From: Elusimicrobiota bacterium
Lineage (GTDB): Bacteria > Elusimicrobiota > Endomicrobiia > Endomicrobiales > Endomicrobiaceae
Assembly (NCBI GenBank): GCA_017528425.1
Contig: JAFXOV010000013.1
Location: 1-45,215 of the forward strand
Length of the DNA stretch: 45,215 nt
Direction: 5' to 3'
The position numbers and the translations under genes are program-made. The notes under the pieces are model-generated. The model saw only the letters and a list, made by a program, of their open reading frames with translations, was not told the origin of the DNA and made no database searches. This document shows positions 3,653 through 37,246 of this stretch, one piece after another (position 1 is the stretch's first letter; every line of letters starts with the position of its first letter).

Positions 3653-3801
3653 TAGCTAAGCGAGTTTTATTTTTTACTTATAATTTTCGCATTTGCCTTC
3701 TTTATGTACCATCCGCTACCGCTTCCATTTATGTACACCGCAGTCGGCAAATGCTTTATTCTAAGCAAAAACTTCGAAACTCTTTGGATGCAACCAACGA
3801 C
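3653..3801 (-). repeat. Long hairpin repeat element, copy 1
   Basis: The element is an imperfect hairpin of about 120 bp (3662-3782) with conserved outer ends (GCTAAGCGAG on one side, ACCAACGAC on the other). The inner arm is GCATTTGCC/GGCAAATGC (3689-3697 with 3746-3754). The tip, read on the minus strand, is TGTAC, a loop of about 23 bases containing AAGCGGTAGCGGATG, then GTACA. Some arm differences are G-U pairs only on the minus strand, hinting that this is the folding strand. Related copies are at 3882, 20938, 24511 and 37095. Confidence 0.75.
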
Positions 3802-3816
3802 AAAACAGCAACGACT

Positions 3817-3851
3817 GGATTGCCACAACCGCTAAAGCGGTTTCGCAATGA
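3817..3851. repeat. REP-like palindrome (ATTGCC type)
   Basis: Nested hairpin: outer ATTGC/GCAAT (3819-3823 and 3845-3849) and inner AACCGCT/AGCGGTT (3827-3842), ending in CAATGACA. It sits between two long hairpin repeats, as REP-like palindromes also do near 20802 and 37271. Confidence 0.55.
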
Positions 3852-3881
3852 CAAAAATTTTCTATACCTTATTCTTTGCTA

Positions 3882-4018
3882 TCAAAGACTTTTCGGATTT
3901 TGAATTAGAACGAAGTATTTGGCGAATGAAGTGTACGTAAAAGAAAGCGATAGCGATTGGTACTCGATTGAGCCAAATACAAAGTTATAATTCAAAAGAT
4001 AAAGTCGCTTCGCTAAAA
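3882..4018 (+). repeat. Long hairpin repeat element, copy 2
   Basis: Opposite in orientation to copy 1. Outer arms GACTTTT.../...AAAGTC run from 3887 to 4006. The inner arm is TATTTGGC/GCCAAATA (3916-3923 with 3972-3979), different in sequence from copy 1 but still self-complementary. The tip has GTAC/GTAC around a long loop containing GAAAGCGATAGCGATTG. The conserved end CGCTTCGCTAAAA follows. The same family features in a different stem sequence are the key observation. Confidence 0.75.
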
Positions 4019-4020
4019 TA

Positions 4021-4116
4021 AAAAAAACAGAAATTTCCGAGTCGTAGTGTACGTAAGTGAAACGGTACATGAGGCTCGGAAATTTGAAGTTGCAACTAAA
4101 ATATTTCTGTTTTTTT
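4021..4116 (+). repeat. Short hairpin element after OMP gene, copy 1
   Basis: A perfect 11-bp stem AAATTTCCGAG/CTCGGAAATTT (4031-4041 with 4075-4085) encloses the family tip, TGTAC-GTAAGTGAAACG-GTACA. An outer CAGAAA/TTTCTG pairing ends in a T-run at 4110-4116. It starts 25 bases beyond the stop codon of the minus-strand outer-membrane gene at 4141-4770. Read from that gene it gives stem, loop and terminal T-run (complement of the A7 at 4021), so it could act as a terminator. A near-identical element follows the paralogous gene at 20176. Confidence 0.75.
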
Positions 4117-4140
4117 GTATTAATGTAACTTAGTTAAATC

Positions 4141-4770
4141 CTAACAAAAGTCAAACTTAAAACCTACATTAAATTTAAATGAATAAGTCGATATATCGTA
4201 TTCAAAATCCGGGTGCGGTCCAGCACAACCCGTAAATTCTGCACTTCCGTAATTAAACGAATATATTAATTCCATTATAAAGTATCTTGCTATTGTAGTT
4301 CCTACACCGATTCCCCAATATACGCCGTTTGCATTTTCCACACTTGCGCCGGGAGGATCATTTCTAAGATCCCAATCTGCATGTAATATTCCGTAACCCA
4401 ATTGAAATATCGGATAAATATTATTATAGCCATAATCATCAAAATCGAAATTATATTTTATTTGGAAATAAATATTCGTATATCCGATTTTATCTTTTGG
4501 TTCACCCGGTGCATATTTTAGTTTACTGTTAAAAATATGATCTACTCCTAAACCTACTGCAACATTGTAATCTAAATAATAGAAAAAATCCGCTCCGACA
4601 GAACAGGTTGTTTTCATATCATAATCTTCATAGCCAAAACCATCCAATCTTGTTTGTTGTGCAAGAGGAATACCGGCTTTTACACCCGCTTCCATTGTTC
4701 CTTGGTCTGCCGCAAATACCGGCAAAACAAGTACTGTTGTAAACAACAATATCAGCAAACTTTTTCTCAT
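4141..4770 (-). CDS. Outer-membrane beta-barrel protein, paralogue 1
   Basis: Small exported barrel protein of 209 aa. A signal peptide (MRKSLLILLF... cleaved after VFAA/FAA near residue 21) is followed by DQGTMEAGVKAGIP and alternating aromatic/polar strands typical of an 8-strand OmpW/OmpX-like porin fold. It shares the mature N-terminus (DQG.ME), the glycine/aromatic motif NGVYWGIGVGTTI and the end pattern with the protein at 20176-20748, and more loosely with 4871-5467. The last residues are KFDFC: the usual terminal aromatic is followed by an extra cysteine, which is unusual. The specific role is unknown. A TCTCCTC-complement ribosome site (GAGGAG) precedes ATG. Confidence 0.75.
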   Translation of the reverse strand: MRKSLLILLFTTVLVLPVFAADQGTMEAGVKAGIPLAQQTRLDGFGYEDYDMKTTCSVGADFFYYLDYNVAVGLGVDHIFNSKLKYAPGEPKDKIGYTNIYFQIKYNFDFDDYGYNNIYPIFQLGYGILHADWDLRNDPPGASVENANGVYWGIGVGTTIARYFIMELIYSFNYGSAEFTGCAGPHPDFEYDISTYSFKFNVGFKFDFC

Positions 4771-4798
4771 ATTTTCTCCTCTAAAAAATTTTCGGGTT

Positions 4799-4820
4799 AT
4801 AAGGCTACCGGTCGCCTTAT
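4799..4820 (-). other. Intercistronic hairpin between barrel genes
   Basis: ATAAGGC and GCCTTAT form a 7-bp stem with loop TACCGGTC, between the stop of the 4871 gene and the ribosome site of the 4141 gene. There is no immediate U-run, so a terminator is doubtful; it may protect the upstream mRNA segment. Confidence 0.4.
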
Positions 4821-4826
4821 CGTTAA

Positions 4827-4850
4827 CCCTATAACCCTATAACCCTATAA
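4827..4850. repeat. Tandem octamer CCCTATAA x3
   Basis: Three perfect head-to-tail copies of CCCTATAA. Degenerate copies occur near 810-846. It lies between two outer-membrane protein genes. Confidence 0.7.
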
Positions 4851-4870
4851 TTTATAACTTATTATTTTTA

Positions 4871-5467
4871 TTAGAAACCGAATTTGTAACCTACATTAAC
4901 TGCTATTCTTCTTGTTGTATAAGACCAACCTTTATTCCAAGCTAAATCATCATTATGTTCCCAATAGTTTACGGAATACAAAAGTTCAACAAGTATGTTA
5001 GCTTTTTCTATACCTAAACCTGCTCCCCAATATAAACCATTCTCTGAAAAATTATAATCATCATAATCGGAACTAAATTCTGTAATACCCATACCTAACT
5101 GGCCTACCAAATATACTCTGTCTACTAATCCTTTTTCCGCCAATACCGGTTTTACTGTAGCATATATATTTGTTGATCCTGATTTTACATCTTCAACCAA
5201 ACCTTTCCATTTTTTTCCGTCAAAATCACTATCAAAAATATAAGAACCACCGACACCTATACCGAGACAATCTATTACAAAGAAATATAAATCTGCTCCA
5301 ACGGAATATGACGGATCCTGCGAATAAGTACATTTATATTCGTTTGCACCTGTTTCCGTTATTGTCGGTTCAATTATGTATCCTGCTTTTAAATCAAATT
5401 CCATTACTGCAAATGCAGGTGCTACCATTGCTACTGCCAAAAACATTGCTGCTAACAACTTTTTCAT
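4871..5467 (-). CDS. Outer-membrane beta-barrel protein, paralogue 2
   Basis: Exported barrel protein of 198 aa. A clear signal peptide (MKKLLAAMFLAVAMVAPAFA) is followed by VMEFDLKAGYIIEP and strands with the same plan as its neighbours, including YSVGADLYFFV and GLYWGAGLG. It ends in YKFGF, a terminal phenylalanine as expected for BAM-assembled proteins. A GGGGGA ribosome site precedes ATG. It has its own consensus promoter inside the end of mazG, so it is probably an abundant envelope protein. The ligand or role is not evident. Confidence 0.75.
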   Translation of the reverse strand: MKKLLAAMFLAVAMVAPAFAVMEFDLKAGYIIEPTITETGANEYKCTYSQDPSYSVGADLYFFVIDCLGIGVGGSYIFDSDFDGKKWKGLVEDVKSGSTNIYATVKPVLAEKGLVDRVYLVGQLGMGITEFSSDYDDYNFSENGLYWGAGLGIEKANILVELLYSVNYWEHNDDLAWNKGWSYTTRRIAVNVGYKFGF

Positions 5468-5525
5468 TTTTTACTTCCCCCATTTATAATTTTTTTCTTA
5501 ACTTTAATTATTTACATATACAATT

Positions 5526-5554
5526 ATTATATTTATATGAGTATTTATTGTCAA
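5526..5554 (-). promoter_or_regulatory. Perfect-consensus sigma-70 promoter for barrel genes
   Basis: On the minus strand TTGACA (5549-5554) is separated by exactly 17 bases from TATAAT (5526-5531), a full match to the vegetative promoter consensus. It overlaps the mazG stop codon and lies about 60 bases ahead of the barrel gene at 4871-5467. It should give strong, constitutive transcription. Confidence 0.8.
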
Positions 5555-5955
5555 ACTTTATTCTTCTGTTTCTTTTCTTCCGCTTTGATTTTTTCCCATT
5601 CCGCTCTTATTTCTTCTTCGGTTGTCGCTTTGGAGTTACCAAACACGTGCGGATGTCTTCTTATCATTTTTTCGTTTATTGTATCTAAAACATCGTATAT
5701 ATCGAACTTATTATTTTCTTTCGCTATCTGTGCATGAAAAATTATCTGTAACAACACATCGCCTAACTCCTCTTTCATGTTGTTGTAATCCATTTTTTGA
5801 ACTGCTTCGTTATATTCGTTTGATTCTTCAAACAAATATTTCATAAGTGATTGATGAGTTTGTTTTTTGTCCCAAGGGCAACCGTGTTCTCCCCTTAACT
5901 TTTCCAAAATATCTACCAACTTAAAAAATTTATTTGCTTTTTCTTCATTGTTCAT
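5551..5955 (-). CDS. mazG: MazG-type nucleotide pyrophosphohydrolase
   Basis: House-cleaning all-alpha NTP pyrophosphatase. It has the MazG hallmarks LRGEHGCPWDKKQTHQSL, the metal-binding EESNEYNEA (EExxE-type) and EELGDVLLQIIFHA, and HPHVFG. At 134 aa it is a single-domain form, about half the length of E. coli MazG, and it ends in a lysine/glutamate-rich helix. An AAGGA ribosome site precedes ATG. It is divergent from tRNA-Leu. Confidence 0.9.
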   Translation of the reverse strand: MNNEEKANKFFKLVDILEKLRGEHGCPWDKKQTHQSLMKYLFEESNEYNEAVQKMDYNNMKEELGDVLLQIIFHAQIAKENNKFDIYDVLDTINEKMIRRHPHVFGNSKATTEEEIRAEWEKIKAEEKKQKNKV

Positions 5956-5965
5956 TATAAATTCC

Positions 5966-5994
5966 TTGTCAATTTACCTACAAAATGATATATT
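5966..5994 (+). promoter_or_regulatory. Predicted promoter of tRNA-Leu
   Basis: TTGTCA (5966-5971), 17 bases, then TATATT (5989-5994). The predicted start is about 8 bases before the tRNA 5' end. Confidence 0.65.
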
Positions 5995-6008
5995 TTTCTT
6001 AACCTTTT

Positions 6009-6091
6009 GCCGAGGTGGTGGAACGGCAGACACACAGGTCTCAGAAGCCTGTAGTCGCAAGACTGTGCGAGTTCAAATCTCGTCCTCGGCA
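6009..6091 (+). tRNA. tRNA-Leu (anticodon CAG)
   Basis: Acceptor stem GCCGAGG pairs with CCTCGGC (6084-6090), discriminator A at 6091. Anticodon stem CAGGT/GCCTG with loop CTCAGAA gives anticodon CAG. A long variable arm (TAGTCGCAAGACTG region) marks a class II leucine tRNA, and the T-arm holds GTTCAAATC. No CCA is encoded, so CCA must be added enzymatically. It is one of only two plus-strand genes in the window. Confidence 0.95.
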
Positions 6092-6095
6092 CATT

Positions 6096-7037
6096 TTACA
6101 TTTTATTTTTTTCAATTTCTCCCGTATAGTAAGGCAAAAATCTTGTTTGCCAAGTAGTAGTGTCTTTCGTTTCCAGAACTTTTAATGTTCTGCCTCTTTC
6201 AACGTGCGATATACCGAAAATCAAATCGGAATATTTTAAACAAACAATATATTCGTTACCTATTTCTTCTACAGACTGCACTTCCGCAGGTATAGGAATC
6301 ATCGCCTGTTCTTTTTTTGCACCTATCAAATGTCCTATATAGTGAGCGATATCTCTTGTATCTATTATTTTTGCAAGAACCTTATCACCCAACGCTAAAT
6401 TTTCTATTTTTTTACCTGCGGAATCTTCAAAAATAATTGCTTCCAGTTCTATTACCGACGAATACTCCGAAGAAATTGTTTCTTTGGGAATGTTTTCCGG
6501 GAAATATTTCGGCAATTTCCTGAAATCTCTTAAGGTAAGTTCTTCGGCAACGATTTCTATCTGTGCATCGTTTTCGGCGAAATAAGATTCCAATACGGTT
6601 TTCATATCTTTACAGGTTATAATCTTATTGCTTTTTAAGTTAGAACTTACAAATTCTTTAAGATTTTTATCTATTGTTTTCGTGTAATTTTCGATAACAC
6701 CTTCTACCAAACGATACGAATATATTTGTTTTTCAAAAGAGAACCAATCCACTTCAACATTCTGTTCATACACTATAGGATTAAATGTCATAACAACACT
6801 GAATCTTAACAAATCGAGATTTTTGTTGTTCGTTATTATGTGAATAAGTCCGAAAATGTTATCGTTTTTTAAAATTATTTTTGCTTTATATGCTGTAATA
6901 TATTTAAGCATTGCGCCGACATAAGAAATCGCTTTGTTAAAATTTCCTTCGGCAAGTTCCAATGCGGTTTTTGCTTCCGATTCTTCACAACCGGTATCGT
7001 CCATTAAAGCTTTTATTTTTTCTGCCGTAATGTTCAT
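6096..7037 (-). CDS. UBA/TS-N domain protein of unknown function
   Basis: A 313-aa cytoplasmic protein. Residues 1-45 (MNITAEKIKALMDDTGCEES, then AKTALELAEGNFNKAISYV) form a UBA-like TS-N helical domain of the type found in EF-Ts and nascent-polypeptide complexes. I do not recognise the rest. It is an alpha/beta region ending in a possible small beta domain (ALGDKVLAKIIDTRDIAHYI; CLKYSDLIFGISHVERGRT). It is not EF-Ts, because the Ts core is absent. It starts just after the xerC/D stop (2-base gap), so it is probably co-transcribed with it. It converges on tRNA-Leu. Confidence 0.6.
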   Translation of the reverse strand: MNITAEKIKALMDDTGCEESEAKTALELAEGNFNKAISYVGAMLKYITAYKAKIILKNDNIFGLIHIITNNKNLDLLRFSVVMTFNPIVYEQNVEVDWFSFEKQIYSYRLVEGVIENYTKTIDKNLKEFVSSNLKSNKIITCKDMKTVLESYFAENDAQIEIVAEELTLRDFRKLPKYFPENIPKETISSEYSSVIELEAIIFEDSAGKKIENLALGDKVLAKIIDTRDIAHYIGHLIGAKKEQAMIPIPAEVQSVEEIGNEYIVCLKYSDLIFGISHVERGRTLKVLETKDTTTWQTRFLPYYTGEIEKNKM

Positions 7038-7039
7038 TA

Positions 7040-7933
7040 TTATTTTACCCTCGGATGAGCACTGTTATAAACTTTTCTTAAACTTTCCAATGTTACATGC
7101 GTATAAATTTGTGTAGTAGATAAATTTTTGTGTCCCAACATTTGTTGAACGCTTCTTATATCACAACCGTGATCCAAAAGATGTGTGGCAAAAGTGTGTC
7201 TTAAAGTATGCGGTGACACTTTTTTTACTAACCCGGCTTTGATAAACCAATTGTGCAAAACTTTTCTTGCACCTCTTGAAGTTATTCTTTTACCGTACAC
7301 ATTTAAAAACATAGGTGAATTTATAGAACAGTCCAGCCCGTTGGCTCTTCTTTGGTCAATATAATTTTTTATTGCCACCAAACATTTATCACCTACGGGA
7401 ACTATTCTTTCCGCGGAACCTTTACCGAACACTTTTAATGTTCCTGACAACAAATCTATATCTTTCAAATTTCTGCTTACGAGCTCTTCTATTCTTATAC
7501 CCGATGAATATAATAATTCTATCATAGCTCTGTCTCTTAAATCAATATCGGGTAAATCAAACAATTTTGTTATTTCCTGTTCGGTAATAAACACAGGTAT
7601 TCTTTTATCTTTTTTCGGCGTTGCCATAGATACCGTAGGATTAACTTCTATAACCGACGTAATAACCAAAAACTTATAAAAAGATTTCAGCACCGCAAGT
7701 TTTCTTATAATGGACGACTTTTTTAAATTTTCGTTGTATAAACAAGCAAGATAATCTCTTATTATATTTTTATCGCATTTAATCAAATCAACATTTTTGT
7801 TCTTTTTAACGAAATCGGCAAAAGCATACATATCAACACTGTAAGCTCTTGCGGTGTTTGGTGAATAGTTTCGTTCGGCTGTTAAATATTGAATGAATTG
7901 TTCTATTTCTTTTATAGGTTCAATTTGTTCCAT
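7040..7933 (-). CDS. xerC: Tyrosine recombinase XerC/XerD
   Basis: Site-specific recombinase that resolves chromosome dimers at dif. The N-terminal SAM-like DNA-binding domain spans about residues 8-95. The catalytic domain has the full set: R147 (SSGIRIEE), K171 (GKGS), H242 and R245 (PHTLRHTFATH), H268 (GHKN) and nucleophile Y277 (QIYTHV). Its length, 297 aa, matches Xer proteins. It could be XerC or XerD, since no second copy is visible to compare. Transcription seems to begin at the ATG itself, because an extended -10 lies only 6 bases upstream. Confidence 0.92.
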   Translation of the reverse strand: MEQIEPIKEIEQFIQYLTAERNYSPNTARAYSVDMYAFADFVKKNKNVDLIKCDKNIIRDYLACLYNENLKKSSIIRKLAVLKSFYKFLVITSVIEVNPTVSMATPKKDKRIPVFITEQEITKLFDLPDIDLRDRAMIELLYSSGIRIEELVSRNLKDIDLLSGTLKVFGKGSAERIVPVGDKCLVAIKNYIDQRRANGLDCSINSPMFLNVYGKRITSRGARKVLHNWFIKAGLVKKVSPHTLRHTFATHLLDHGCDIRSVQQMLGHKNLSTTQIYTHVTLESLRKVYNSAHPRVK

Positions 7934-7939
7934 ATATTA

Positions 7940-7948
7940 ATTATACCA
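7940..7948 (-). promoter_or_regulatory. Extended -10 promoter placing the xerC/D start at the ATG
   Basis: On the minus strand TGGTATAAT (extended -10; TATAAT at 7940-7945) ends 6 bases before the ATG. Initiation at normal spacing would give a leaderless mRNA. It lies immediately after the topA terminator T-run. Confidence 0.55.
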
Positions 7949-7986
7949 AAAAAAATGAAGCAGGAAGATTTTTTCTTCCTGCTTCA
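7948..7986 (-). terminator. Rho-independent terminator after topA
   Basis: A perfect 13-bp stem TGAAGCAGGAAGA/TCTTCCTGCTTCA (7956-7986) is followed on the minus strand by eight T residues. It sits 15 bases past the topA stop. Confidence 0.9.
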
Positions 7987-8000
7987 CTTATTATTATTAA

Positions 8001-10232
8001 TTATTTTGCTTTTTTCTTTGTCTTTTTCGTTGCTGTCTTTTTTGTTTCTTTTGCTTCTTTTTTTTCTATTATTATGTTACCTTCGGAATCTGTTTTTACC
8101 CATACAAGATTTCTGCATTTCGGAAAAGCAGAACATGTTAAAAACGGTCCTCTTTTACCTATTCTTTTAAGCATCGGGCTACCGCATTTTTCACATTTCA
8201 TATCGGTCTTTTCAGGTTCCGGTTTTATAACTTTGTTACCGTTTTTATCTAAAGAGTATGTCGTTTTACATTCCGGATAATGTTCGCATGCAAGATAAGG
8301 GCCTCTGAATCCCATTTTCTTTAACATTACGCCACCGCATTTAGGACACTTTTCTTCCGTTTTTTCCGGTTCGTTGGAAACTTTGTTGCCGTCTTTATCT
8401 ACGGAGAAAGTTGTTTTACATTCCGGATATCCCGAACATGCCATAAAAGGTCCTCTTCTGCTTTCTCTTATAACCATCGGTTTGCCGCATTTAGGGCAAA
8501 CTTCGTTTGTTGCTTTAGGAGCAATCTTTTGTCTTGTAGCACCTTCCGCTTTTGTTAAATGACTTTCAAACGGAGTATAAAATTTCTTCAAAACATCCTG
8601 CCATTTAAGTTTGTTTTCAGCTATATCATCGAACTCTTCTTCAATGTCTGCCGTAAATTCGTAGTTTATAACATCTTTAAAGTTTTCTTTTAAAAATTTG
8701 TTTACAACTACACCCAAATCCGTAGGATAAAACTTTTTATTTTCAAGTCTTACGTACATTCTGTCAAGTATGGTTTTTATCGTAGGTGCATAAGTTGAAG
8801 GTCTGCCTATACCGTACTCTTCCAATGTTTTAATCAAACTTGCTTCGTTGTATCTTGCAGGCGGTTCCGTAAAATGTTGTTCGGGAACAACTTTTATTAA
8901 GTTCAAGTTATCGTTTTGTTCCAATACAGGAAGTTTAGGTTCTTTTGTATCTTCGTCTTGTATTGTGTAAACTTTCATAAAACCGTCAAACTTAAGTGTT
9001 GAACCGGTTGCTCTAAACATATAATTATTTGCTTGTATATCTATTGTAACGGTATCGTATACCGCATCTGCCATTTGGCTTGCAACAAATCTGTTCCATA
9101 TTGCTTTATAAAGTTTATATTCGTCTGCGGTAAGATACTGTTTCATCATTTCGGGTGTTCTTTTAACCGATGTAGGTCTTATTGCTTCGTGAGCTTCCTG
9201 AGCACCTTTGGACTTTGTTTTATAAAATCTCGGCTTTGAAGGAACAAAACCTTTTCCGTAACTCGTTTCTATAAAACTCAAAGCTTCTTTTTGTGCAACT
9301 GCAGCAATATTTAAAGAGTCCGTTCTCATATATGTTATAAGACCGACAACTCCCTGATTACCTATTTGTATACCTTCATATAATTTCTGTGCAACCGACA
9401 TTGTTTTTGATGAAGAAAAGCCTATTCTTCTTGAAACGTCCTGTTGCATTGTGGATGTTGTATAAGGAGGATACGGACTTCTTTTCCTTTCCTTCTTTTC
9501 CACAGAAGAAACCACATACTTTGCATTCTCAAGTTCCTTTAATATTTTATCTGCTTGTTCTTTGTTTTGTATGGCAAGTTTTTCGAACTTCTTACCGTCT
9601 TTCGATATAAGATTTGCAGTGAAAGACATATCTTTATCTTTTTGAAGTTCGGCTTCAACAGACCAATATTCTACAGGAACAAACTTTTCTATTTCTTCTT
9701 CTCTGTCGCATATCATCATAACGGCAACAGACTGAACTCTTCCTGCGGAAAGGCCTTTTCTTATCTTTTTCCATAATATAGGTGACAACTTATAACCTAC
9801 AAGTCTGTCCAAAATTCTTCTTGCCTGTTGGCTGTCAACCAAAGCCATGTCTATTTTTCTCGGGTTTTTAACAGCTTCTTTTATTGCCGATTCGGTTATT
9901 TCGTGGAAAGTAATTCTGTCTGTTTTATCGTCCGGCAACTTTAACAATTCTTTTAAGTGCCAAGCTATAGCTTCCCCTTCTCTATCCAAATCGGTTGCAA
10001 GATATACATGCCCTACCTGTTCTACCGCCTTTTTTAAATCAGTAATGATTTTTTTTGATTTCGGCATTGCAACATATGTAGGTTTAAAGTCTTTTTCGAT
10101 ATCAACACCTATCTTGTTTTCGGGCAAATCTCTGATATGACCGAACGAACTTTTAACTATATAATCGCTCCCCAACATTTTGGATATTGTTTTTGATTTT
10201 GCGGGAGATTCCACTATTACTAAACTTTTCAT
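8001..10232 (-). CDS. topA: DNA topoisomerase I
   Basis: Type IA topoisomerase that removes negative supercoils. The TOPRIM domain starts at residue 2 (SLVIVESPAKSKTISKMLG) with DLDREGEAIAWH at 81-92. The active-site tyrosine is Y301 in GLITYMRTDS. Three C-terminal zinc ribbons (CPKCGKPM, CPKCGGVM, CEKCGSPM, each with a second Cys pair) are joined by near-identical linkers (DKDGNKVS and DKNGNKVI). A lysine-rich tail (KKTATKKTKKKAK) ends the 743-aa protein. It lies between dprA and xerC/D, a frequent gene neighbourhood, and is closed by a strong terminator. Confidence 0.97.
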   Translation of the reverse strand: MKSLVIVESPAKSKTISKMLGSDYIVKSSFGHIRDLPENKIGVDIEKDFKPTYVAMPKSKKIITDLKKAVEQVGHVYLATDLDREGEAIAWHLKELLKLPDDKTDRITFHEITESAIKEAVKNPRKIDMALVDSQQARRILDRLVGYKLSPILWKKIRKGLSAGRVQSVAVMMICDREEEIEKFVPVEYWSVEAELQKDKDMSFTANLISKDGKKFEKLAIQNKEQADKILKELENAKYVVSSVEKKERKRSPYPPYTTSTMQQDVSRRIGFSSSKTMSVAQKLYEGIQIGNQGVVGLITYMRTDSLNIAAVAQKEALSFIETSYGKGFVPSKPRFYKTKSKGAQEAHEAIRPTSVKRTPEMMKQYLTADEYKLYKAIWNRFVASQMADAVYDTVTIDIQANNYMFRATGSTLKFDGFMKVYTIQDEDTKEPKLPVLEQNDNLNLIKVVPEQHFTEPPARYNEASLIKTLEEYGIGRPSTYAPTIKTILDRMYVRLENKKFYPTDLGVVVNKFLKENFKDVINYEFTADIEEEFDDIAENKLKWQDVLKKFYTPFESHLTKAEGATRQKIAPKATNEVCPKCGKPMVIRESRRGPFMACSGYPECKTTFSVDKDGNKVSNEPEKTEEKCPKCGGVMLKKMGFRGPYLACEHYPECKTTYSLDKNGNKVIKPEPEKTDMKCEKCGSPMLKRIGKRGPFLTCSAFPKCRNLVWVKTDSEGNIIIEKKEAKETKKTATKKTKKKAK

Positions 10233-19907: not shown

Positions 19908-19960
19908 TTTTTACTATTTAAGTTTAAACAACAAATTGAGGCTTGGAAACGACAGAACGG

Positions 19961-19988
19961 CAATTTATAATTTACAATTTATAATTTC
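19961..19988. repeat. AT palindromic repeat, third copy
   Basis: AATTTATAATTTACAATTTA-type sequence, identical in core to those at 720-751 and 10266-10298. All three are intergenic. The rest of the 19891-20041 gap shows no gene. Confidence 0.6.
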
Positions 19989-20041
19989 GGAAGAATTAAT
20001 TTTTTATTATTTAAGATTGTTATTAGAATTTAAGGACATTA

Positions 20042-20158
20042 GAAAAAACAGACATATTTGTAAGTGAAACAAAAAATTTCCGAGCCGTAGTGTACACAAG
20101 TGAAACGGTACATGAGGCTCGGAAATTTGAAGTTGCAACTAAAATTTTTCTGTTTTTT
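20042..20158 (+). repeat. Short hairpin element after OMP gene, copy 2
   Basis: The 11-bp stem AAATTTCCGAG/CTCGGAAATTT (20074-20084 with 20118-20128) and the tip are nearly identical to 4021-4116. The left arm carries about 20 extra bases (TATTTGTAAGTGAAAC region), so the outer stem AAAAAACAGA/TCTGTTTTTT is longer. It begins 18 bases after the stop of the barrel gene at 20176-20748, the same position relative to its gene as copy 1. Confidence 0.75.
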
Positions 20159-20175
20159 ATATTAAAGTTAGCTTA

Positions 20176-20748
20176 TTAAAAAGAAAATTTGTAACCTACT
20201 TTCAATTGTAATGTTGAATATTTTAAATCAAGTGCAACAGTAGGATTTACTTTTATAGATGCATTGCTGTTTGAATAAAGAATTTCAAAAACAAAATTTT
20301 CTTTTATTGTTGTTCCCGCACCGATTGCCCAATACAATCCGTTTGAATCTTCATGGGTATCAGGATCTGTTCTCATAATACCATAACCAACTTGAATCAA
20401 AGGATAAATATTGTTAAACAAATCATCACCTAAATCAAACATATATTTTGCCTGTGCATAAAGATTTGTCCAACCAGCTTTTACAGGTGTATCTTTTACT
20501 TTGGAATTAAAAACATACTCTACACCTGCACCGATTGCTAACTGTGGCATTACATAATAAAAAAAATCTACCCCTGTTGTAAATGCGGAATCAACATCGT
20601 TAGAATCATCATAATAATCATCAATTTCTACTTTAGACATAAGATTAAAACCTGCTTTAATGTCCAACTCCATAGCACCTTGGTCTGCTGCAAATGCAGG
20701 TGCTACAAGTGCTACCGCCAACAACATTGCTAAAACTACTTTTTTCAT
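20176..20748 (-). CDS. Outer-membrane beta-barrel protein, paralogue 3
   Basis: Exported 190-aa barrel protein. The signal peptide MKKVVLAMLLAVALVAPAFA is followed by ADQGAMELDIKAGFN. It shares DQG.ME, GVEYVFNSKVKD, the IYPLIQVGYGI segment and NGLYWAIGAGTTIKENF with the 4141-4770 protein, so the two are close paralogues. It ends YKFSF with the expected terminal phenylalanine. A GGGGAAAG ribosome site precedes ATG. Function unknown; OmpW/OmpX-like size. Confidence 0.75.
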   Translation of the reverse strand: MKKVVLAMLLAVALVAPAFAADQGAMELDIKAGFNLMSKVEIDDYYDDSNDVDSAFTTGVDFFYYVMPQLAIGAGVEYVFNSKVKDTPVKAGWTNLYAQAKYMFDLGDDLFNNIYPLIQVGYGIMRTDPDTHEDSNGLYWAIGAGTTIKENFVFEILYSNSNASIKVNPTVALDLKYSTLQLKVGYKFSF

Positions 20749-20801
20749 TTTACTTTCCCCTTTTTATAAAAATTTACTTCATAATTTTTATTCAATACAA
20801 G

Positions 20802-20822
20802 ATCCCGCATCAAGTGCGGGAT
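20802..20822. repeat. REP-like palindrome (ATCCCGCA type)
   Basis: ATCCCGCA/TGCGGGAT stem with loop TCAAG, followed by GACAGAC. The same palindrome, with one compensated change (ATTCCGCA/TGCGGAAT), occurs at 37271-37291. Confidence 0.65.
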
Positions 20823-20834
20823 GACAGACTTCTT

Positions 20835-20876
20835 GTCATTGGTTACTTTCTAAGACTTCCAATATTTTAAATTTTA
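20835..20876 (+). repeat. Truncated half of a long hairpin repeat
   Basis: GTCATTGGTTACTTTCTAAG and the following bases match the left end of the element at 20938 but no right arm follows. It looks like a decayed or half copy. Confidence 0.5.
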
Positions 20877-20937
20877 ACCATTTCTATTTTAAGTTTACCT
20901 ATGAATGTAGCAATCAAAAGAAAAATTCATACCTATT

Positions 20938-21077
20938 GTCGTTGGTTACTTTCTAAGGCTTTTGAGATTTTAAATAAGAATGAAGCATTTACCGACTGAA
21001 GTGTACAAAAGTGAAAACGGTACATGAAGGAGGTAAATGCAATATTATTATTTAAAAGATGAAGCCGCTTCGCGCTC
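20938..21077 (+). repeat. Long hairpin repeat element, copy 3
   Basis: Outer arms GGCTTTTGAG.../...GATGAAGCC (20957-21066). Inner arm GCATTTACC/GGTAAATGC (20985-20993 with 21032-21040), with the change from GCATTTGCC matched on the other side. The tip TGTAC-AAAAGTGAAAACG-GTACA has the short loop seen in the 4021 and 20042 elements. The end CGCTTCGCGCTC abuts the stop of the glycosidase at 21089. Confidence 0.75.
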
Positions 21078-21088
21078 AAAAGGAAAAA

Positions 21089-22339
21089 CTAATATGTTGC
21101 CGGATCCCAATCCCAAAGTTCTTCCTGGTATGTATAATAAACTCTTTTTAAAACTCGTTGGAACGGACTGTGTTTTCCTTTACCTTGAGAACAAATTCCG
21201 AGCCATTCATCGTTGAATTCGCCGTCTATTGTTGAACCGGGCCAAGCCCCTAAATGTGTATCGTGAACTTTGGATGAACCTACAAGCCACCATCTGTCCA
21301 TCCAAGAATAAGCTACACCGCCTATGGAATTTCCTGCACCGTCACCCCAAAAGCTGTTATTTTCTATGTTTTTCCATGCACCATAATGATATCTTGCCTG
21401 ATAAGCTTCACAAGTGGATTTCTTTTTTTCGTTCCAGGAATCACAACCGTATTCCGTAATAAGAACAGGTCTGTCAAATTCTTTTTTTACTCTGTTCCAC
21501 AATGTACTAAATCCATACGGTCCGCCGTACTGGTTAAATCCCAACACATCTATACTGGGTGAATGTTTAGCGTAATATTTAATGAATCTTGTTGTTGCAT
21601 TACATACACCTACAGGATGCTTATTGTCATCAAGTTTTTTTATCATCTTGCAAGCTTCTTCAACAAACTTTGCATAAACTTCCGGATATTTCCAAGCATT
21701 GGTATTTGTTGCCGTAGAATTTGCGGAGTTTCCGGAGACATCGTTTTCGTTTCCCAACATCCACATTAACACATAAGGTTCATTCTTATGTTCTTCAACC
21801 ATTTCTCTAACACTTTCAAGCATAGCCTGTCTTTGTTTTTCGTTCAAATAGCTTGTTCCGGAAGACCACGCTGCGCTGCTGCCTTTTGTATATGCACCGA
21901 AAAAGTTTCCCATTATAACCATTATGCCGTAATTATAATACAAATCTCTTAACAACTCTTTATTTATATTATCACTGTGATAAACTCTTATAGTGTTACA
22001 ACCCATAGCTTTAAGTAATGCAAAATCACCGATATTGTCTTCATAATTATCCCTGTAATTATCTCTGTTCAAATCAAGCCAAGATTCATAAGGCCCGTCT
22101 ATTAATCCGTTATTATTAATATCCTGCCACATCCAATCATTTACATTGCTCATACCGAATCCGACTCTGTCGCAACAATAAGCTATACCTTTTACAAAAT
22201 ACGGTTTATGGTCAACTAAAAGTTTCCATACCCCTTCCCTGTTTTTAACGACTTTTACGGCAGAAAAAGCATTAACCGTAAAAGACAGGCATGTAATTAA
22301 AGCTATTAATGTGGTAAATATTTTTTTATTAAATATCAT
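21089..22339 (-). CDS. Secreted clan GH-A glycoside hydrolase
   Basis: Exported TIM-barrel glycosidase of 416 aa. The signal peptide ends near FSA (residue 27). The barrel holds the acid/base glutamate E198 (MLGNEND) and the nucleophile E296 (ITEYGCD), the GH2/GH5-type pair. NTIRVYHSDN is a clan GH-A beta-strand. Between them is an EF-hand-like calcium loop, DINNNGLIDG (73-82), then LDLNRDNYRDNYED. It is paralogous to the next gene upstream, with a 5-base gap, so the two form an operon. Family could be GH2, GH5 or GH72-like; the substrate is probably a beta-glucan, which is inference. Confidence 0.8.
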   Translation of the reverse strand: MIFNKKIFTTLIALITCLSFTVNAFSAVKVVKNREGVWKLLVDHKPYFVKGIAYCCDRVGFGMSNVNDWMWQDINNNGLIDGPYESWLDLNRDNYRDNYEDNIGDFALLKAMGCNTIRVYHSDNINKELLRDLYYNYGIMVIMGNFFGAYTKGSSAAWSSGTSYLNEKQRQAMLESVREMVEEHKNEPYVLMWMLGNENDVSGNSANSTATNTNAWKYPEVYAKFVEEACKMIKKLDDNKHPVGVCNATTRFIKYYAKHSPSIDVLGFNQYGGPYGFSTLWNRVKKEFDRPVLITEYGCDSWNEKKKSTCEAYQARYHYGAWKNIENNSFWGDGAGNSIGGVAYSWMDRWWLVGSSKVHDTHLGAWPGSTIDGEFNDEWLGICSQGKGKHSPFQRVLKRVYYTYQEELWDWDPATY

Positions 22340-24510: not shown

Positions 24511-24655
24511 TTTTAGCGAAGCGAGTTTTATTTTTTGTTTATAATTTCGCATTTACCTTCTTTATGTACCGTTTCACTTTTGTACACCGCAGTCGGCAAA
24601 TGCTTTATTCTAAACAAAAACTTGAAAACTCTTTGATTGCCAATTAACAACAAAT
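24511..24655 (-). repeat. Long hairpin repeat element, copy 4
   Basis: Arms GAGTTTTATTTTTTGTTTA... and ...TAAACAAAAACTTGAAAACTC (24523-24631), inner arm GCATTTACC/GGCAAATGC. The single arm difference is an A-C clash on the plus strand but a G-U pair on the minus strand. Tip (minus strand) TGTAC-AAAAGTGAAACG-GTACA. Conserved end TTTTAGCGAAGCGAG. It fills most of the 24495-24676 gap. Confidence 0.75.
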
Positions 24656-28977: not shown

Positions 28978-28983
28978 ATTTTC

Positions 28984-30435: not shown

Positions 30436-30437
30436 AA

Positions 30438-31091: not shown

Positions 31092-31092
31092 A

Positions 31093-32043: not shown

Positions 32044-32061
32044 TTTTTTTCTCTCTTAAAA

Positions 32062-32364
32062 TTAATTTACATTATGTCTTTTCATCATTCTGTTAACTTT
32101 TCTTTCCAAATCTTTTTTTTCTCTTTGTCTTCTTGTACCATTGTAAGCCCCTGCTCTAAGTACAGCTTCCAAATCTTTTTTTTGTCTCATTGCGCCTGCG
32201 GAAACTCTGTTTGCATCATTTATTATACTTTTATAATCTTCGGTAATAAGTTGCCCTTTTTCGTTGGTAAACGTAGCTTTCGTTTTACTCATGGAAATAT
32301 AATACAAACAAAAAATTATCGCTAAAACAATAAGCAATTCTAAAAGAAGAGATCCTATTCTCAT
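32062..32364 (-). CDS. Small prepilin-like protein
   Basis: A 100-aa protein. The N-terminus MRIGSLLLELLIVLAII fits a type IV prepilin signal: a short positive leader ending in Gly4, glutamate at position +5 and a hydrophobic helix. The rest is a charged helix (AMRQKKDLEAVLRAG; RRQREKKDLERKVNRMMKRH) without a pilin head domain. It may be a minor pseudopilin or just a single-pass membrane protein. A minus-strand TATAAT at 32413-32418 could belong to its promoter. It precedes the PASTA gene by 18 bases. Confidence 0.5.
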   Translation of the reverse strand: MRIGSLLLELLIVLAIIFCLYYISMSKTKATFTNEKGQLITEDYKSIINDANRVSAGAMRQKKDLEAVLRAGAYNGTRRQREKKDLERKVNRMMKRHNVN

Positions 32365-32432
32365 TATTTTTTATTTCCGAAATCAAATAAATTTCAACAA
32401 CAAGTTTTTTATATTATACAAAAAATTACCGA

Positions 32433-33044
32433 CTACCAATTATTAACATGAACTTTTTCAGGGTTATATTTTTGTTTAGGTTCTTCTTTTTCAAAAGGAT
32501 ATCCCATAGGAATAATATTTAACGGAATAACATTTTCCGGCAAATTAAAAAATTCTCTGATTTCTTTTACTTTTTCTTCCGAAGGATACACTGCACACCA
32601 AACTGCACCCAACTCCAAAGATTCTGCCGCCAACAAAATATTTTCTGTTACGGCACAACAATCCTGTATCCAAAATTTATCGCTAACAGTTTTGTCTCCG
32701 CAAACGATTATTGCAAGTTGTGCGTTTTTACTGTAAGAAGCGTTCGGAGCAATTTGTGCAAGTTTTTCCAATTTTTCTTTATCGGTTACAACCAAAATTT
32801 CCCAAGGTTGTTTATTCATTGCACTTGGAGCAGCCATACCGCATTTCAAAATTGTATCTATCTTGTCTTGTTCGATTTTTTTATCGGAATACTTTCTTAC
32901 ACTTTTTCTGTTCACAATATTTTCTATTGCAGAACCATCAGAACTGTTATTTGTTGCAGACTTTTGTGAATTTCTGTCTGCTGTTACGCAAGAAACAAGT
33001 GAAAATGCCAAAATTACTGAAAAAATATAAATTACTTTTTTCAT
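32433..33044 (-). CDS. Nitroreductase-family lipoprotein
   Basis: A 203-aa FMN-dependent nitroreductase-fold protein with a lipoprotein signal peptide (lipobox LVSC, Cys19). The fold signature is NRKSVRKYSDKKI, then MAAPSAMNKQPWE and GAVWCAVYPSEEKVKEIR, MGYPFE. An exported nitroreductase is unusual, since FMN would need to be loaded before or during export. AGGAG precedes ATG. It is divergent from corA. Confidence 0.85.
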   Translation of the reverse strand: MKKVIYIFSVILAFSLVSCVTADRNSQKSATNNSSDGSAIENIVNRKSVRKYSDKKIEQDKIDTILKCGMAAPSAMNKQPWEILVVTDKEKLEKLAQIAPNASYSKNAQLAIIVCGDKTVSDKFWIQDCCAVTENILLAAESLELGAVWCAVYPSEEKVKEIREFFNLPENVIPLNIIPMGYPFEKEEPKQKYNPEKVHVNNW

Positions 33045-33074
33045 AAAACTTCTCCTATAAAAAGTACTTGGTTA

Positions 33075-33104
33075 ATTATATATAATATACGGGCTAAATT
33101 TCAA
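33075..33104 (-). promoter_or_regulatory. Predicted promoter of nitroreductase gene
   Basis: Minus-strand TTGAAA (33099-33104), 18 bases, TATAAT (33075-33080). Confidence 0.6.
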
Positions 33105-33145
33105 TTTGTTTTTTATTGTAAAATTTAAAAAAAACATAAAATTTC

Positions 33146-33174
33146 TTTACTTAAATACTTTTATTTTGTAAAAT
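33146..33174 (+). promoter_or_regulatory. Predicted promoter of corA
   Basis: TTTACT (33146-33151), 17 bases, TAAAAT (33169-33174), about 30 bases before ATG. A pattern match in very AT-rich DNA, so uncertain. Confidence 0.4.
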
Positions 33175-33204
33175 TTTTTTGTTATATAAAAACAGGGTAT
33201 TGGT

Positions 33205-34197
33205 ATGATTAAATCTATTTATGTAAACAACGGTATATGCCAACAAGAAGAAAGCATCGAAAATATAAATAAAATTTACAGTAACAATCCGTCCTTGTTA
33301 TGGGTTGATATTACTTTGGAAAAAGGCGATTTGTCTACAGATGAAATTGCTCTTCTTACCGATACATTCAAATTTCACGAACTTTCCGTAGAAGATTGTT
33401 TGTTCCCTTTGTATAACCCTAAAGTTGAAGAGTTCGATAATTATTTGTTTGTTAACACTCACGGTATAAGATTAAAAACCATGAACTTAGCTGAATTCGA
33501 TGAATCAATGTACGAACTTGATATATTTTTATCAACAAATTTGATAGTTACGGCACATACCGAAGAATTGGAATTCTTGGATGGTTTAATGCATAAAGCA
33601 ATGTTGAAACCGCAGATAGAGTTGAAAAGTATGGAAACGTTGCTTTACAAAATTTTATCGAAAGTTGTAGACAACCTTGAACATACAATGGAAAAAATAA
33701 GCGATAAAATAGATTTATTGGAAGATAAAGTTTTGGAAGATCCGCATCCGGATGATATGGAACAAATTCTCGACTTGAAAAAAGTTTTGCTTTCAATGAG
33801 AAAAATCGCAGATCCTCAAAGAAACGTTTATTCTTTCTTTGCAAGAGAAAACAACGAATATATAAGAGAGTCTTATTCCGCATATTTCAGAGATATTACA
33901 GACCAACTTAACAGTTTAAACAAAACAATAAATTATAATTCTCAAATGATAAGCTCACTTATTGCTATTTATATGTCTTCGGTAACATTGAAGTTAAACG
34001 AAACTATGAAATTCCTGAGTATAATAGCAACAATATTTTTGCCGATACTTATATTTGCAAGTTATTACGGGATGAATGTTGCTTTCCCGGAAATAAAAAT
34101 TTTGGGTGAAACGGGAACATGGTTTTTTGCAATCTTTTTAATACTTGCTTCAACCTGCGGAATTATTCTGTATATGAAAAGAAAAAAATGGTTTTAA
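33205..34197 (+). CDS. corA: CorA-type magnesium/cobalt channel
   Basis: Pentameric divalent-cation channel of 330 aa. A large cytoplasmic funnel precedes two C-terminal membrane helices. The signature YGMNVAFPE (GMN) ends the first helix and the protein finishes with the basic tail MKRKKWF. It is the only protein gene on the plus strand and is isolated by its own promoter and terminator. Confidence 0.93.
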   Translation: MIKSIYVNNGICQQEESIENINKIYSNNPSLLWVDITLEKGDLSTDEIALLTDTFKFHELSVEDCLFPLYNPKVEEFDNYLFVNTHGIRLKTMNLAEFDESMYELDIFLSTNLIVTAHTEELEFLDGLMHKAMLKPQIELKSMETLLYKILSKVVDNLEHTMEKISDKIDLLEDKVLEDPHPDDMEQILDLKKVLLSMRKIADPQRNVYSFFARENNEYIRESYSAYFRDITDQLNSLNKTINYNSQMISSLIAIYMSSVTLKLNETMKFLSIIATIFLPILIFASYYGMNVAFPEIKILGETGTWFFAIFLILASTCGIILYMKRKKWF

Positions 34198-34210
34198 AAA
34201 ATATTAAATA

Positions 34211-34247
34211 AAAAAGGAAGGTACTTTTTGGTGCCTTCCTTTTTTTA
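34211..34247 (+). terminator. Bidirectional terminator between corA and uvrA
   Basis: GGAAGGTAC/GTGCCTTCC stem (34216-34239) with A-tract on the left and T7 on the right, so it can serve convergent corA and uvrA. Confidence 0.9.
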
Positions 34248-34260
34248 TTGTATTAAAACT

Positions 34261-37077
34261 TTATTTTTGTTTTCCGTAAATAAGTTTTCTTAAGAATTGA
34301 CCGGTATAAGATTTTTCTATTGCCATAATTTTTTCCGGTGTTCCGCAACCTACAACTTTACCGCCGCCGTCTCCGCCTTCGGGACCTAAATCTATTATCC
34401 AATCTGCCGTTTTAATAACATCCAAATTGTGTTCTATAACAAGAACTGTGTTTCCGGCATAAACCAATTTGTGTAAAACATCAAGAAGCTTTGCAATATC
34501 GGCAAAATGTAAGCCTGTTGTAGGTTCATCAAGAATATAAAGTGTTCTGCCTGTAGATCTTCTTGAAAGTTCCGTTGCAAGTTTTATTCTTTGTGCTTCT
34601 CCGCCGGACAATGTTGTTGAAGATTGTCCTATCTTAATGTATCCCAAACCTACATCATTTAATGTAGATAATATTTTGTGCAGTTTCGGAATATTTTCAA
34701 AAAATTTTACACTTTCTTCAACCGTCATATTTAAAACTTCGTCTATATTCTTGCCTTTATATTTTATCTGTAAAGTTTCTTCATTAAATCTTCTGCCGCC
34801 GCAAACATCACACTTAACGAAAATGTCAGGTAAAAATTGCATTTCTATTTGTAATGTTCCGTCACCCTGACAATTTTCGCATCGTCCGCCTTTAACATTA
34901 AACGAAAATCTGCCCGGCATATAACCTCTTGCTTTAGCTTGAGGAGTTTGCGCAAACAAATCTCTTATCAAAGAAAATGCTCCCGTATATGTTACAGGGT
35001 TGGATCTGGGTGTTCTGCCTATAGGAGACTGATCTACAATAACTACCTTATCTATATTTTCAAGACCCTCTATACCTTTATTTTTGCCGGGAACTTCTTT
35101 TGCTCTGTAAAATTTTTGTGCTAAAGATTTATATAAAATTTCATGAACTAAAGTAGATTTCCCCGAACCCGAAACACCCGTTACACAAACAAATAAACCC
35201 AACGGAATATCAACATTAATATTTTTTAAATTGAACTGACTTGCACCTTTTATCGATAACCATTTACCGTTAGTTTTCTTTCTTTTCGGTATAGGTATTG
35301 AAAGTTTTCCGTTAAGATATTGTGCGGTAACTGAATTTTTAACTTTCATAACTTCTTTCGGTGTTCCGCTTGCAACAACCTGTCCTCCGTGCACTCCCGC
35401 ACCGGGACCTAAATCTATTAAATAGTCAGCTGTTCTCATTGTATCTTCATCGTGTTCAACAACAATTAATGTGTTACCTAAATCTCTTAATGTTGTTAAT
35501 GTTTTTAACAACATTGTATTATCTCTTTGATGAAGACCTATTGACGGTTCATCCAACACATAAAGAACACCTGTAAGCCCCGAACCTATTTGTGTTGCAA
35601 GATGTATTCTTTGTGCCTCACCGCCGGAAAGAGTGGAACTTTGCCTGTCTAAACTTAAGTATGAAAGGCCGACATTATTTAAAAAGTTTAATCTTGCTTT
35701 AATTTCTTTTAAAATAACTTTTGATATAGTTTTTTCTTTTTCGGTAAGTTTGATATTATCAAAAAATTTTACAGCTTGTTCCACCGACATTGCCGTTATA
35801 TCCATAATTGATTTATCGTTTACCAATACGGATAAAGCTTCTTTTTTCAATCTTTTACCGTGACATGTAGGACAAGTTTTTGTGGACATATACTTTGAAA
35901 AAATTTCGGTTCTTACAAAATCGGATTCGGTTTCGCTGTACCTTCTTTGCATGTTGGTAATAACACCTTCAAATTCTCCGTCACCATATAACAACACTTC
36001 CTGTTGCTTGGATGTTAAATCTTTCCACGGCCTGTTCATGGGAATTCTGTTTCTTTTACATGCATCGGTTATAAGTTCATAATAATACCCTGACCATGCA
36101 CCTTTCCATCTGTGAGTTCTTGTTGTTACCGGTTCGGACCATGCCTGTAATGCACCCTGATTAACCGTCCTTGTTTTGTCCGGAACAATCAAATCGGGAT
36201 CTATTTCGCTTTTTTCTCCTATACCGGAACAATCCGGACATGCACCGTGCGGAGTGTTAAAAGAAAAAAGTCTCGGTTCTATTTCTGATATATTTATACC
36301 GCAATCTATACAAGCATAATGTTCACTGTAAGTTTTTTCTTCTTTTATATCTTTGTTTTCGTTAACTACCGCAACAGTTACAAGACCTCTTGCCTGTTTA
36401 AGAGTGGTTTCTATTGAATCCGCTATTCTTGTGTGTGCCTGTTCGGACACTTTTATTCTGTCTATCAACAAATCTATGTTATGTTTTTTGTATCTGTCTA
36501 ACTTTATTGTTTCATCAAGGTTATAAATCTTTTTGTCTACTCTTACTCTTGTAAAACCGTCTTTTAAAAGTCTTGAAAAAAGTTCTTCGTAAGTTCCTAT
36601 TTTACTTTTTACAAGCGGTGCAAGAATATATATCATCGTTCCTTCATCAAGTTTCATAACATCATCTATAATTTGTTGCGAACTTTGCGGAGTAACTTTT
36701 TTACCGCATTTAGGACAATGTGCTATACCTATTCTTGCATATAACAATCTTAAATAATCGTAAATTTCCGTTACCGTTCCCACAATAGATCTCGGATTAT
36801 GTGACGGATTTTTTTGTTCTATGGAGATTGCCGGTGAAAGACCTTCGATAATATCAACATCCGGTTTATCCATAAGGTCTAAAAATTGTCTTGCATAAGC
36901 AGACAAAGATTCAACATATCTTCTTTGCCCTTCGGCATATATGGTATTAAATGCAAGTGAAGATTTCCCAGAACCTGATAAACCCGTAACAACAACAAGT
37001 TTGTTCTTCGGAATGTCGATATCTACGTTTTTTAAGTTATGTTGTCTTGCACCTCTTATTTTAATTATATTATCCAT
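34261..37077 (-). CDS. uvrA: Excinuclease ABC subunit A
   Basis: Damage-recognition ATPase of nucleotide-excision repair. Two ABC modules: GLSGSGKSS near the N-terminus and GVSGSGKST in the second half, with signatures [12 protein letters not shown] and [12 protein letters not shown]. Zinc motifs include [13 protein letters not shown]...CPDC, and CENCQGDG...CDVCGGRR. The frame stays open to 37167, but the family start is [14 protein letters not shown] at 37077, preceded by AAGGA; the longer version would run into a hairpin repeat. 938 aa is normal. Confidence 0.96.
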
Positions 37078-37094
37078 ACATTTTCCTTTTATAT

Positions 37095-37246
37095 TGCTAA
37101 GCGAGTTTAATTTTTTACTTCTAATTTTGCATTTGTCTCCCTTATGTACCACTCGCTCCGCTTTCATTTATGTACACCGCAGTCGTCAAATGCTTCATTA
37201 CAAGTAAAAACTTGGAAACTCTTGATTTGCCAAGCAACGACAACGA
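37095..37246 (-). repeat. Long hairpin repeat element, copy 5
   Basis: Arms GAGTTTAATTTTTTACTTC... and ...GTAAAAACTTGGAAACTC (37103-37221), inner arm GCATTTGTC/GTCAAATGC with one mismatch. The stem here reads TTACTT/AAGTAA where copy 4 has TTGTTT/AAACAA, a matched change. Minus-strand tip TGTAC-ATAAATGAAAGCGGAGCGAGTG-GTACA. Ends GCTAAGCGAG and CAACGACAACGAC. The remaining 37293-37415 shows no gene or clear signal. Confidence 0.75.

Follow-up and report, generated by a model that had tools for sequence, protein, structure and literature searches.

Some insertion sequence (IS) elements insert into the loops of palindromes, as IS1397 does in bacterial interspersed mosaic elements (BIMEs), and carry a transposase gene. 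Our work describes a family of gene-less hairpins of about 115–150 bp found in a 45,215-nt stretch of DNA, contig C22 of the genome of an Elusimicrobiota bacterium (G000; 2.08 Mb, 64 contigs), which is called the window below. Going by its nearest named relatives, the host is probably an uncultured rumen member of the Endomicrobiaceae: its lysine-tRNA ligase matches that of a sheep-rumen Elusimicrobia MAG at 100% and those of rumen or red-deer Endomicrobia/Elusimicrobia at 92–93%, followed by that of Candidatus Proruminimicrobium at 81% and that of Endomicrobium. We class the hairpins as miniature palindromic mobile DNA, and they seem to spread by insertion into, and overwriting of, older copies of the family. 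They share with IS1397-type elements an apparent preference for a hairpin apex as the target, but here the insert is a gene-less hairpin of the same family. The counts per 68 copies given below refer to the set recovered by a covariance model (R1) from 273,746 bases of G000, comprising the regions around the copies and the window.

The available parts of the literature describe REP sequences as units of 20–40 bp with a GTAG or CGTC tag, moved by REP-associated tyrosine transposases (RAYTs) of the Y1 HUH type (PMC3116915, PMC2817692, PMC3733652). The present hairpins resemble REPs and REPINs in being intergenic, folded, non-autonomous, present in many copies and often close to gene 3′ ends, but differ from them in their size (115–150 bp), their three helices, their free arms and their constant tip. 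In the 75 nt 5′ of the hairpin core, GTAG occurs in 9/68 copies and CGTC in 2/68, and in the 75 nt 3′ of the core in 7/68 and 5/68, respectively, against background values of 0.084 and 0.058 per background window. The Y1 transposase family (PF01797) had no match in nine of the 11 genomes of the genus, including all four good ones (completeness ≥90%, contamination ≤5%); one match over the cut-off came from G009, and a weak one below it from G007. The unit size, the missing tags and the absence of a Y1 match in these nine genomes rule out a REP/RAYT system. CGTC-tagged repeats, which include the Rickettsia palindromic elements, are described in the part of the source available as short and without a known transposase (PMC3733652), and the family differs from them in the CGTC counts just given; covarying arms and self-nesting are not mentioned there.

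In integron attC sites, as far as the accessible text describes them, the R boxes hold the constant AAC/GTT, and the terminal structure varies (PMC2727003). The free arm sequence, the putative recognition by shape and unpaired bases, and the use of one strand are all reminiscent of attC; here, however, no part is more constant than the tip, and 67 of the 68 copies have no R boxes. The RYYYAAC (R″) and GTTRRRY (R′) boxes were found in 1/68 copies on either strand, and integron integrase genes were not searched for. Models of the REP/TnpA or integron type, which the sequence-only reading had proposed, therefore do not fit. The hairpin elements of sponge mitochondria, of which the portion of the report consulted records conserved stems and variable loops (PMC2800124), are likewise mobile, spread through intergenic regions and inserted in tandem, but their pattern of stem and loop conservation is the reverse of that seen here.

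No named family was recognized in the original reading of the window, and this still holds against Rfam and in the literature searched. At the gathering score, only two tRNAs in the window match Rfam. A search of positions 19950–21150, which hold two copies, at a relaxed threshold gave eight matches with E-values of 2.2–4.9, each far below its gathering score. In the open-access literature searched, no paper describes the hairpin family, and the available part of PMC11257099, which covers IS and CRISPR prediction, mentions no such repeat. One S-type copy had no match in a plasmid collection, one L-type copy none in a phage collection, and five typed patterns none among viral contigs, so that a phage or plasmid origin was set aside for the copies and patterns tried.

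The shape and loops are kept, the arm sequence is not

Read 5′ to 3′ on the strand carrying GTGTAC, the unit begins with a variable outer helix of about 8–15 pairs and a short internal loop, followed by a second helix of three pairs, of the AAC/GTT, GAC/GTC or ACT/AGT kinds, and an AAA/RAA internal loop. The main helix is again variable, with 9–13 pairs, and a mismatched GA/GA-like step breaks it in more than half of the copies (its two pairs are unpaired in 39/68 and 40/68). A GYA/AA internal loop then leads to the tip helix, GTGTAC/GTACAT, which closes a loop some 12 or 22 nt long. Minority variants of the tip helix are GTGTGC/GCACAT and GTGTAT/ATACAT, and the second tip pair is non-standard in 25/68 copies.

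The five elements picked out by the sequence-only reading are present at their coordinates with the stems and tip described for them. They belong to the types that we call L and L2; these names, like S, M and K, are convenience labels, and the types at the junctions were assigned by reading. The shared ends reported for the five (GCTTCGC and CAACGAC) hold within subtype L and not across the whole family; S elements have the ends AACAGAAA..TTTCTGTT, M elements start with AAGACCTTAAG.. and K elements with AGAACGAATAG...

It had further been claimed that the stems differ and yet pair, and our analyses bear this out. In the alignment of 68 copies, which was fitted to the model and therefore leans towards the structure, 90.5% of the 1495 pair cells are standard-paired (70.2% after shuffling), double changes occur in 20 of the 22 pairs, with 307 double-changed cells against 82.2, and the covariation score is 0.572 against 0.184. 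None of 500 shuffles reached the observed pairing, double-change or score values, and shifting the partner by 1–3 columns left a pairing of only 20–52.9%. The measure of further pair types was not significant in this set, with 84 of the 500 shuffles reaching the observed value. A MAFFT alignment of 28 copies, which was not fitted to the model, gave 94.8% pairing against 76.9%, although the structure was derived from these same copies and their selection by the tip makes the tip helix uninformative there. Thinning to 35, 26, 19 and 11 copies left the signal intact, with 92.6–94.6% pairing and slid controls of at most 51%; the 11 copies that are less than 60% identical to one another are 94.6% paired, against 68.0% when shuffled.

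The strand bias points in the same direction. G-T mispairs outnumber A-C ones by 28 cells to 4 outside the tip helix (42 to 3 within it), which upholds the earlier claim that single-sided changes are G-U only on the GTGTAC strand and identifies this as the folding strand. It has the more stable fold in 65/68 copies with RNA parameters and in 63/68 with DNA parameters. Covariation, strand bias and the pairing of the thinned sets thus strongly support selection on a folded single strand.

The family is numerous. The seed pattern GTGTAC-N8..30-GGTACAT occurs at 28 places in G000, and the same pattern reversed at none; together with the shuffled and slid-partner controls, this rules out chance palindromes. 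R1 was built on the cores of these 28 copies (alignment A3), and a genome-wide search with it at E ≤ 0.01, in which 150 of the 1652 first-look candidates were scored, found 67 copies in G000. Copies are present in all 11 genomes of the genus (67, 54, 52, 68, 28, 40, 51, 63, 13, 2 and 5). R1 matched 20/59 genomes in a sample of the family and 20/294 in a sample of the phylum (E ≤ 1e-4, stricter filters and 15 candidates scored per genome); 19 of the latter 20 belong to the same family and one to the same order.

Unit boundaries, junction swaps and remnants

The hairpin behaves as a unit. Among 114 pairs of paralogues at least 85% identical, in 84 the homology starts 16–45 nt ahead of the core, and in 92 it stops 15–34 nt past it, at the hairpin foot in both cases; in these numbers the neighbouring copies at 3905 and 4021 are partly double-counted, and one pair consists of these two overlapping stretches. 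Close paralogues such as L188:2470 and L195:2510 (97.4% over 115 bp) or L179:2493 and L186:2541 (97.2% over 145 bp) illustrate that even such copies have little in common outside the hairpin.

Comparison of orthologous junctions revealed how readily the elements change. Twelve gene junctions were readable in at least one congener, and L186:11577, 13955 and 14883 gave nothing readable. At eight of the 12, the congener has an element with other arms: the 21.0-kb and uvrA junctions of the window, L186:2541, 2989 and 10729 (the last before hydG), and L201:2513, 6818 (before purF) and 12436. At the uvrA junction, for example, the window and G008 have an L-type element, and G001 and G006 an M-type one. 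Presence or absence distinguishes three more (lysS, 24.5 kb and L201:9099): at the lysS junction, G008 has only a plain terminator-like hairpin at the site of the shortened S-type element, and the 24.5-kb element is present in G002, absent in G003 and G006, and has its core deleted in G001. At the 20.1-kb junction, G003 has an element of the same type, and the whole outer membrane protein (OMP) gene is absent together with the element in G001, G002, G006 and G008. As a side observation, this OMP β-barrel gene and its S-type hairpin thus come and go as a unit, which is 99% identical between G000 and G003, and genes resembling it occur elsewhere in the genome.

At the 21.0-kb junction, S-type elements are present in G001, G002, G003 and G006, and in the window only the first 52 nt of the S element, identical to those in G002 and G006, are left, followed directly by an L-type element. 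Given that four congeners share the S element, S was probably replaced by L. Vertical descent with covariation in place is unlikely, since remnants of other types adjoin the intact copy. Taken together, these comparisons support well that the hairpin unit is mobile.

Remnants occur widely. A search of DNA regions of G000 and its congeners for stand-alone halves, with the halves of 133 intact copies as queries, gave 41 left-half and 23 right-half hits, 31 and 16 of them better supported; the own-genome regions alone contributed 20 left halves, six of which rest on a single query, and four right halves. Of the left halves, 35 have an intact copy no more than 251 nt away, and 33 of these precede it on the 5′ side with matching orientation; the other six are far from any copy found. 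Their breakpoints range from –28 to +7 relative to the first tip base, with 11/41 at 0 to +7 and none beyond, though the queries reached +16. Right halves start at the tip (0 or ±1) in six cases and in the right arm in 10, and a further seven start in the loop (–8 to –14, as far as the queries reached); for 12 of the 23 an intact copy is at most 250 nt away, and 10 of these 12 follow it on the 3′ side, likewise with matching orientation.

Some remnants enclose an intact element. The clearest case, in G008 (L285), has a newer hairpin in the apex of an older one: an M left arm is followed by about 110 nt, then by an intact K element with a short tail behind it, and finally by the M right arm from TACTCGATTGAG on. 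A stack in G002 (L299) consists of an L2-like left remnant, an intact K element, an M right half and an L2 right half from TACTCGAAGAAG on, this last start being set by reading, with the BLAST match reaching 8 nt further left. Both stacked right halves start at, or a few nt from, TACTCGA, the right strand of the tip. The M/K composite itself (202–276 bp, 95.5–96.7% identical) is found in different surroundings in G000, in G002 and twice in G008, which implies that the composite has itself moved.

How the hairpins may spread

The sequence-only reading had left three options, a non-autonomous mobile hairpin, an RNA element or a regulatory signal, and the first is the best fit to the unit boundaries, the near-identical copies with different flanks, the swaps and the nesting. 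On these grounds, and with the covariation, the strand bias and the polarity of placement given below, we consider it rather probable that the family consists of mobile, gene-less elements that are copied as a unit to new sites. The GTGTAC..GTACAT strand folds into three variable helices with constant internal loops and a constant tip, and the comparisons show a unit that spreads with its strand and shape constrained and comes to lie within older copies or in their stead, oriented as they are. The preferred landing site would be the apex or the left arm of a like-oriented resident copy; old copies would be split or overwritten, such that the junction would keep an element of changed type. The moving form may be single-stranded DNA, with a putative trans-acting recombinase reading the tip and internal loops, in which case the tip could be its target or cut site and the apex its preferred place of entry. 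A more specific version, in which resident copies of the family are entered at their tip (G^TAC) by a gene-less folded strand that is recognized by its shape and constant loops, is possible rather than probable.

Several observations weigh against this reading. No recombinase gene has been linked to the family, the families searched being the Y1 transposase and reverse transcriptase. Target-site duplications, which together with terminal inverted repeats of constant sequence would mark a classical miniature inverted-repeat transposable element (MITE), cannot be defined owing to arm remnants and GTCGTT arrays; the foot helix differs between types. The left breakpoints span the whole left arm, unlike those of a strictly site-specific enzyme. 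Right halves are scarcer than left ones, suggesting that replacement, rather than clean insertion, is usual. As to the remnants themselves, 10 of the 41 left and five of the 23 right hits rest on a single query, and two right hits lie at contig ends. Several hits also go back to one event, through orthology or duplication (L279 has two identical left halves, L186, L285, L299 and L300 share the M/K composite, and L278 and L293 have like junctions), so that independent events are fewer. Finally, identity to G002 shifts across the 21.0-kb region, from 96% on the left to 88% on the right, and ordinary recombination between strains is therefore also at work.

The main rival is template switching, in which long hairpins stall replication forks: the nascent strand leaves its template at the left arm or apex of one copy, copies another that lies elsewhere and rejoins downstream. 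The elements would then be passive and yet self-spreading, with no recombinase needed, and the lack of a candidate enzyme in the two families searched would be expected. The scatter of left breakpoints over the left arm as far as the tip and the frequent lack of 3′ right halves suit this idea as well, as does the presence of GTCGTT in 23/68 5′ flanks, against 6.8% of 75-nt intergenic windows, as slippage filler might produce. However, the donor sequence mostly starts and ends at the hairpin foot and not at random, and arms that covary around constant loops and a constant tip point to recognition of shape; we thus regard template switching as unlikely. A structured RNA, either a small RNA or an mRNA element, selected as a transcript and spread by recombination, would account for the covariation, the one-strand G-U pairs and the constant purine-rich internal loops, and 23 of the 67 copies in G000 do lie in sense just before the start of the gene on their 3′ side (e.g. 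groEL, purF, nifS and uvrA). The other 44 lie just after the stop of a gene that runs in antisense, though, and the lack of a common function among the scanned neighbours, the absence or swapping of copies between close relatives and the missing Rfam match make this explanation improbable. The assorted housekeeping genes among these neighbours, together with the 44 opposite-running ones, also make the regulatory-signal option unlikely, and a shared regulon was ruled out on the functional unrelatedness of the neighbours scanned.

It is least likely of all, and indeed barely plausible, that the hairpins are attC-like sites of an integron-like tyrosine recombinase, carrying gene cassettes, one of which would be the OMP gene flanked by two elements. 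Like attC, the hairpin is a folded single strand in which the arms vary and certain unpaired bases are constant, and the OMP gene could pass for a cassette, since G000 and G003 have it together with its S-type element and four congeners lack both at this junction. However, R boxes occur only in the single copy noted above (integrase genes again not having been searched for), and most swaps change the element while the genes stay. A resident reverse transcriptase as the mover was also considered: PF00078 matches 4/40 genomes of the family, G000 and G009 among them, but neither G003, with 68 copies, nor G006, with 54, has a match although both genomes are 100% complete, which rules it out for these two. 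Like the Y1 transposase, this enzyme is thus not general among element-rich genomes. Nor is a recombinase evident in the large inserts beside elements in L270, L279, L280 and L281, whose products, judged by eye and with no family search, resemble long surface proteins of repetitive sequence, a lipoprotein and metabolic or other proteins.

Gene neighbourhoods and consequences for the lineage

The window holds seven copies of the family, listed in Table 1 with two remnants.

Table 1. Hairpin elements and remnants in the window, with R1 core positions and scores
Feature	Position	Strand	Core	Score	Remarks
L-type hairpin element upstream of lysS	3653..3801	-	3673-3764	82.1 bits, E 4.8e-17	
L2-type hairpin element, tip GTGTAC..GTACTCGATTGAG	3882..4018	+	3905-3995	68.7 bits, E 1e-13	
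S-type hairpin element, left arm shortened	4021..4117	+	4021-4100	77.6 bits	missed by the sequence-only reading; at 3′ end of gene 4141-4770, which has no Pfam match
S-type hairpin element	20043..20160	+	20064-20143	90.6 bits, E 3.7e-19	missed by the sequence-only reading; adjoins 3′ end of OMP β-barrel gene 20176-20748 (PF13505)
Left-arm remnant of older L-type element	20841..20878	+			right end approximate; read against congeners at the same junction
Left part of S-type element	20880..20931	+			52 nt; element whole here in G002 and G006
L-type hairpin element, likely replacing the rest of the S-type element	20938..21077	+	20975-21055	80.7 bits	from junction comparison; 3′ end abuts stop of gene 21089-22339
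L-type hairpin element	24511..24655	-	24534-24613	87.1 bits	
L-type hairpin element upstream of uvrA	37095..37246	-	37114-37203	82.7 bits	

Gene neighbours were called with a simple open-frame rule; the copy at 37114, which this rule placed wrongly, is counted here under uvrA. The 3′ end of the element is closer to a gene than the 5′ end in 62/67 copies, with one tie and medians of 35 and 174 nt; this count leaves out one copy at a contig end. The 22 sense-side genes are assorted (groEL, lysS, purF, nifS, metH, dnaJ, hydG and others, among the 25 of 205 family matches listed; uvrA is not in this set). The 41 antisense-side genes, a set from which one mis-assigned gene and two genes already in the sense set were dropped, belong to varied families and include five OMP β-barrels among the 25 of 68 family matches listed. 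The uvrA frame (34261-37167) extends into the element upstream of it, and its probable true start is the ATG near 37077, just outside. In M-like copies with an antisense neighbour, the terminal GCTATA/GTTATA seems to provide the stop codon of the gene (L173:1993-2067, L174:6813-6888 and L178:2482-2566), the open frame stopping 13 nt from the core.

Other repeats lie 5′ of the elements as well. GTCGTT arrays (CAACGAC on the opposite strand) lie by the 5′ foot, for example at 37235-37262 and 3795-3815 of the window, and may be filler or insertion scars. A second short palindromic repeat, of the GTCATTCCGCACTTGATGCGGAATCTAT kind, is found at 37260-37300 and at several congener junctions, and AAATCGCGAAGCGATTT hairpins are found likewise. 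At the uvrA-side junction of G002, an insert of about 7 kb (L270:1904-8606) encodes two long repetitive surface-like proteins and adjoins an element and a right-half remnant. In 274 kb of own-genome DNA, CTAG is strongly depleted (30 against 254.9 expected, ratio 0.12), and GTAC, the mark of the element tip, only mildly (ratio 0.75).

To conclude, small palindromic repeats are common in bacteria and are usually defined by their constant sequence, whereas in this family the shape is kept and the sequence is free, as it is in structured RNAs and attC sites. Turnover is fast enough for close relatives to differ at one and the same gene junction, and the resulting natural series of replacements may reveal how a mobile element made of a folded strand is cut and joined. 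If the self-targeting proposal is true, the hairpins would be rivals for a limited and fixed number of gene junctions, nesting in one another and erasing one another, and their arms would be left free to diversify as long as they pair. The elements give core genes changing 5′ and 3′ flanks, and may thereby alter terminators and leaders in this rumen lineage.

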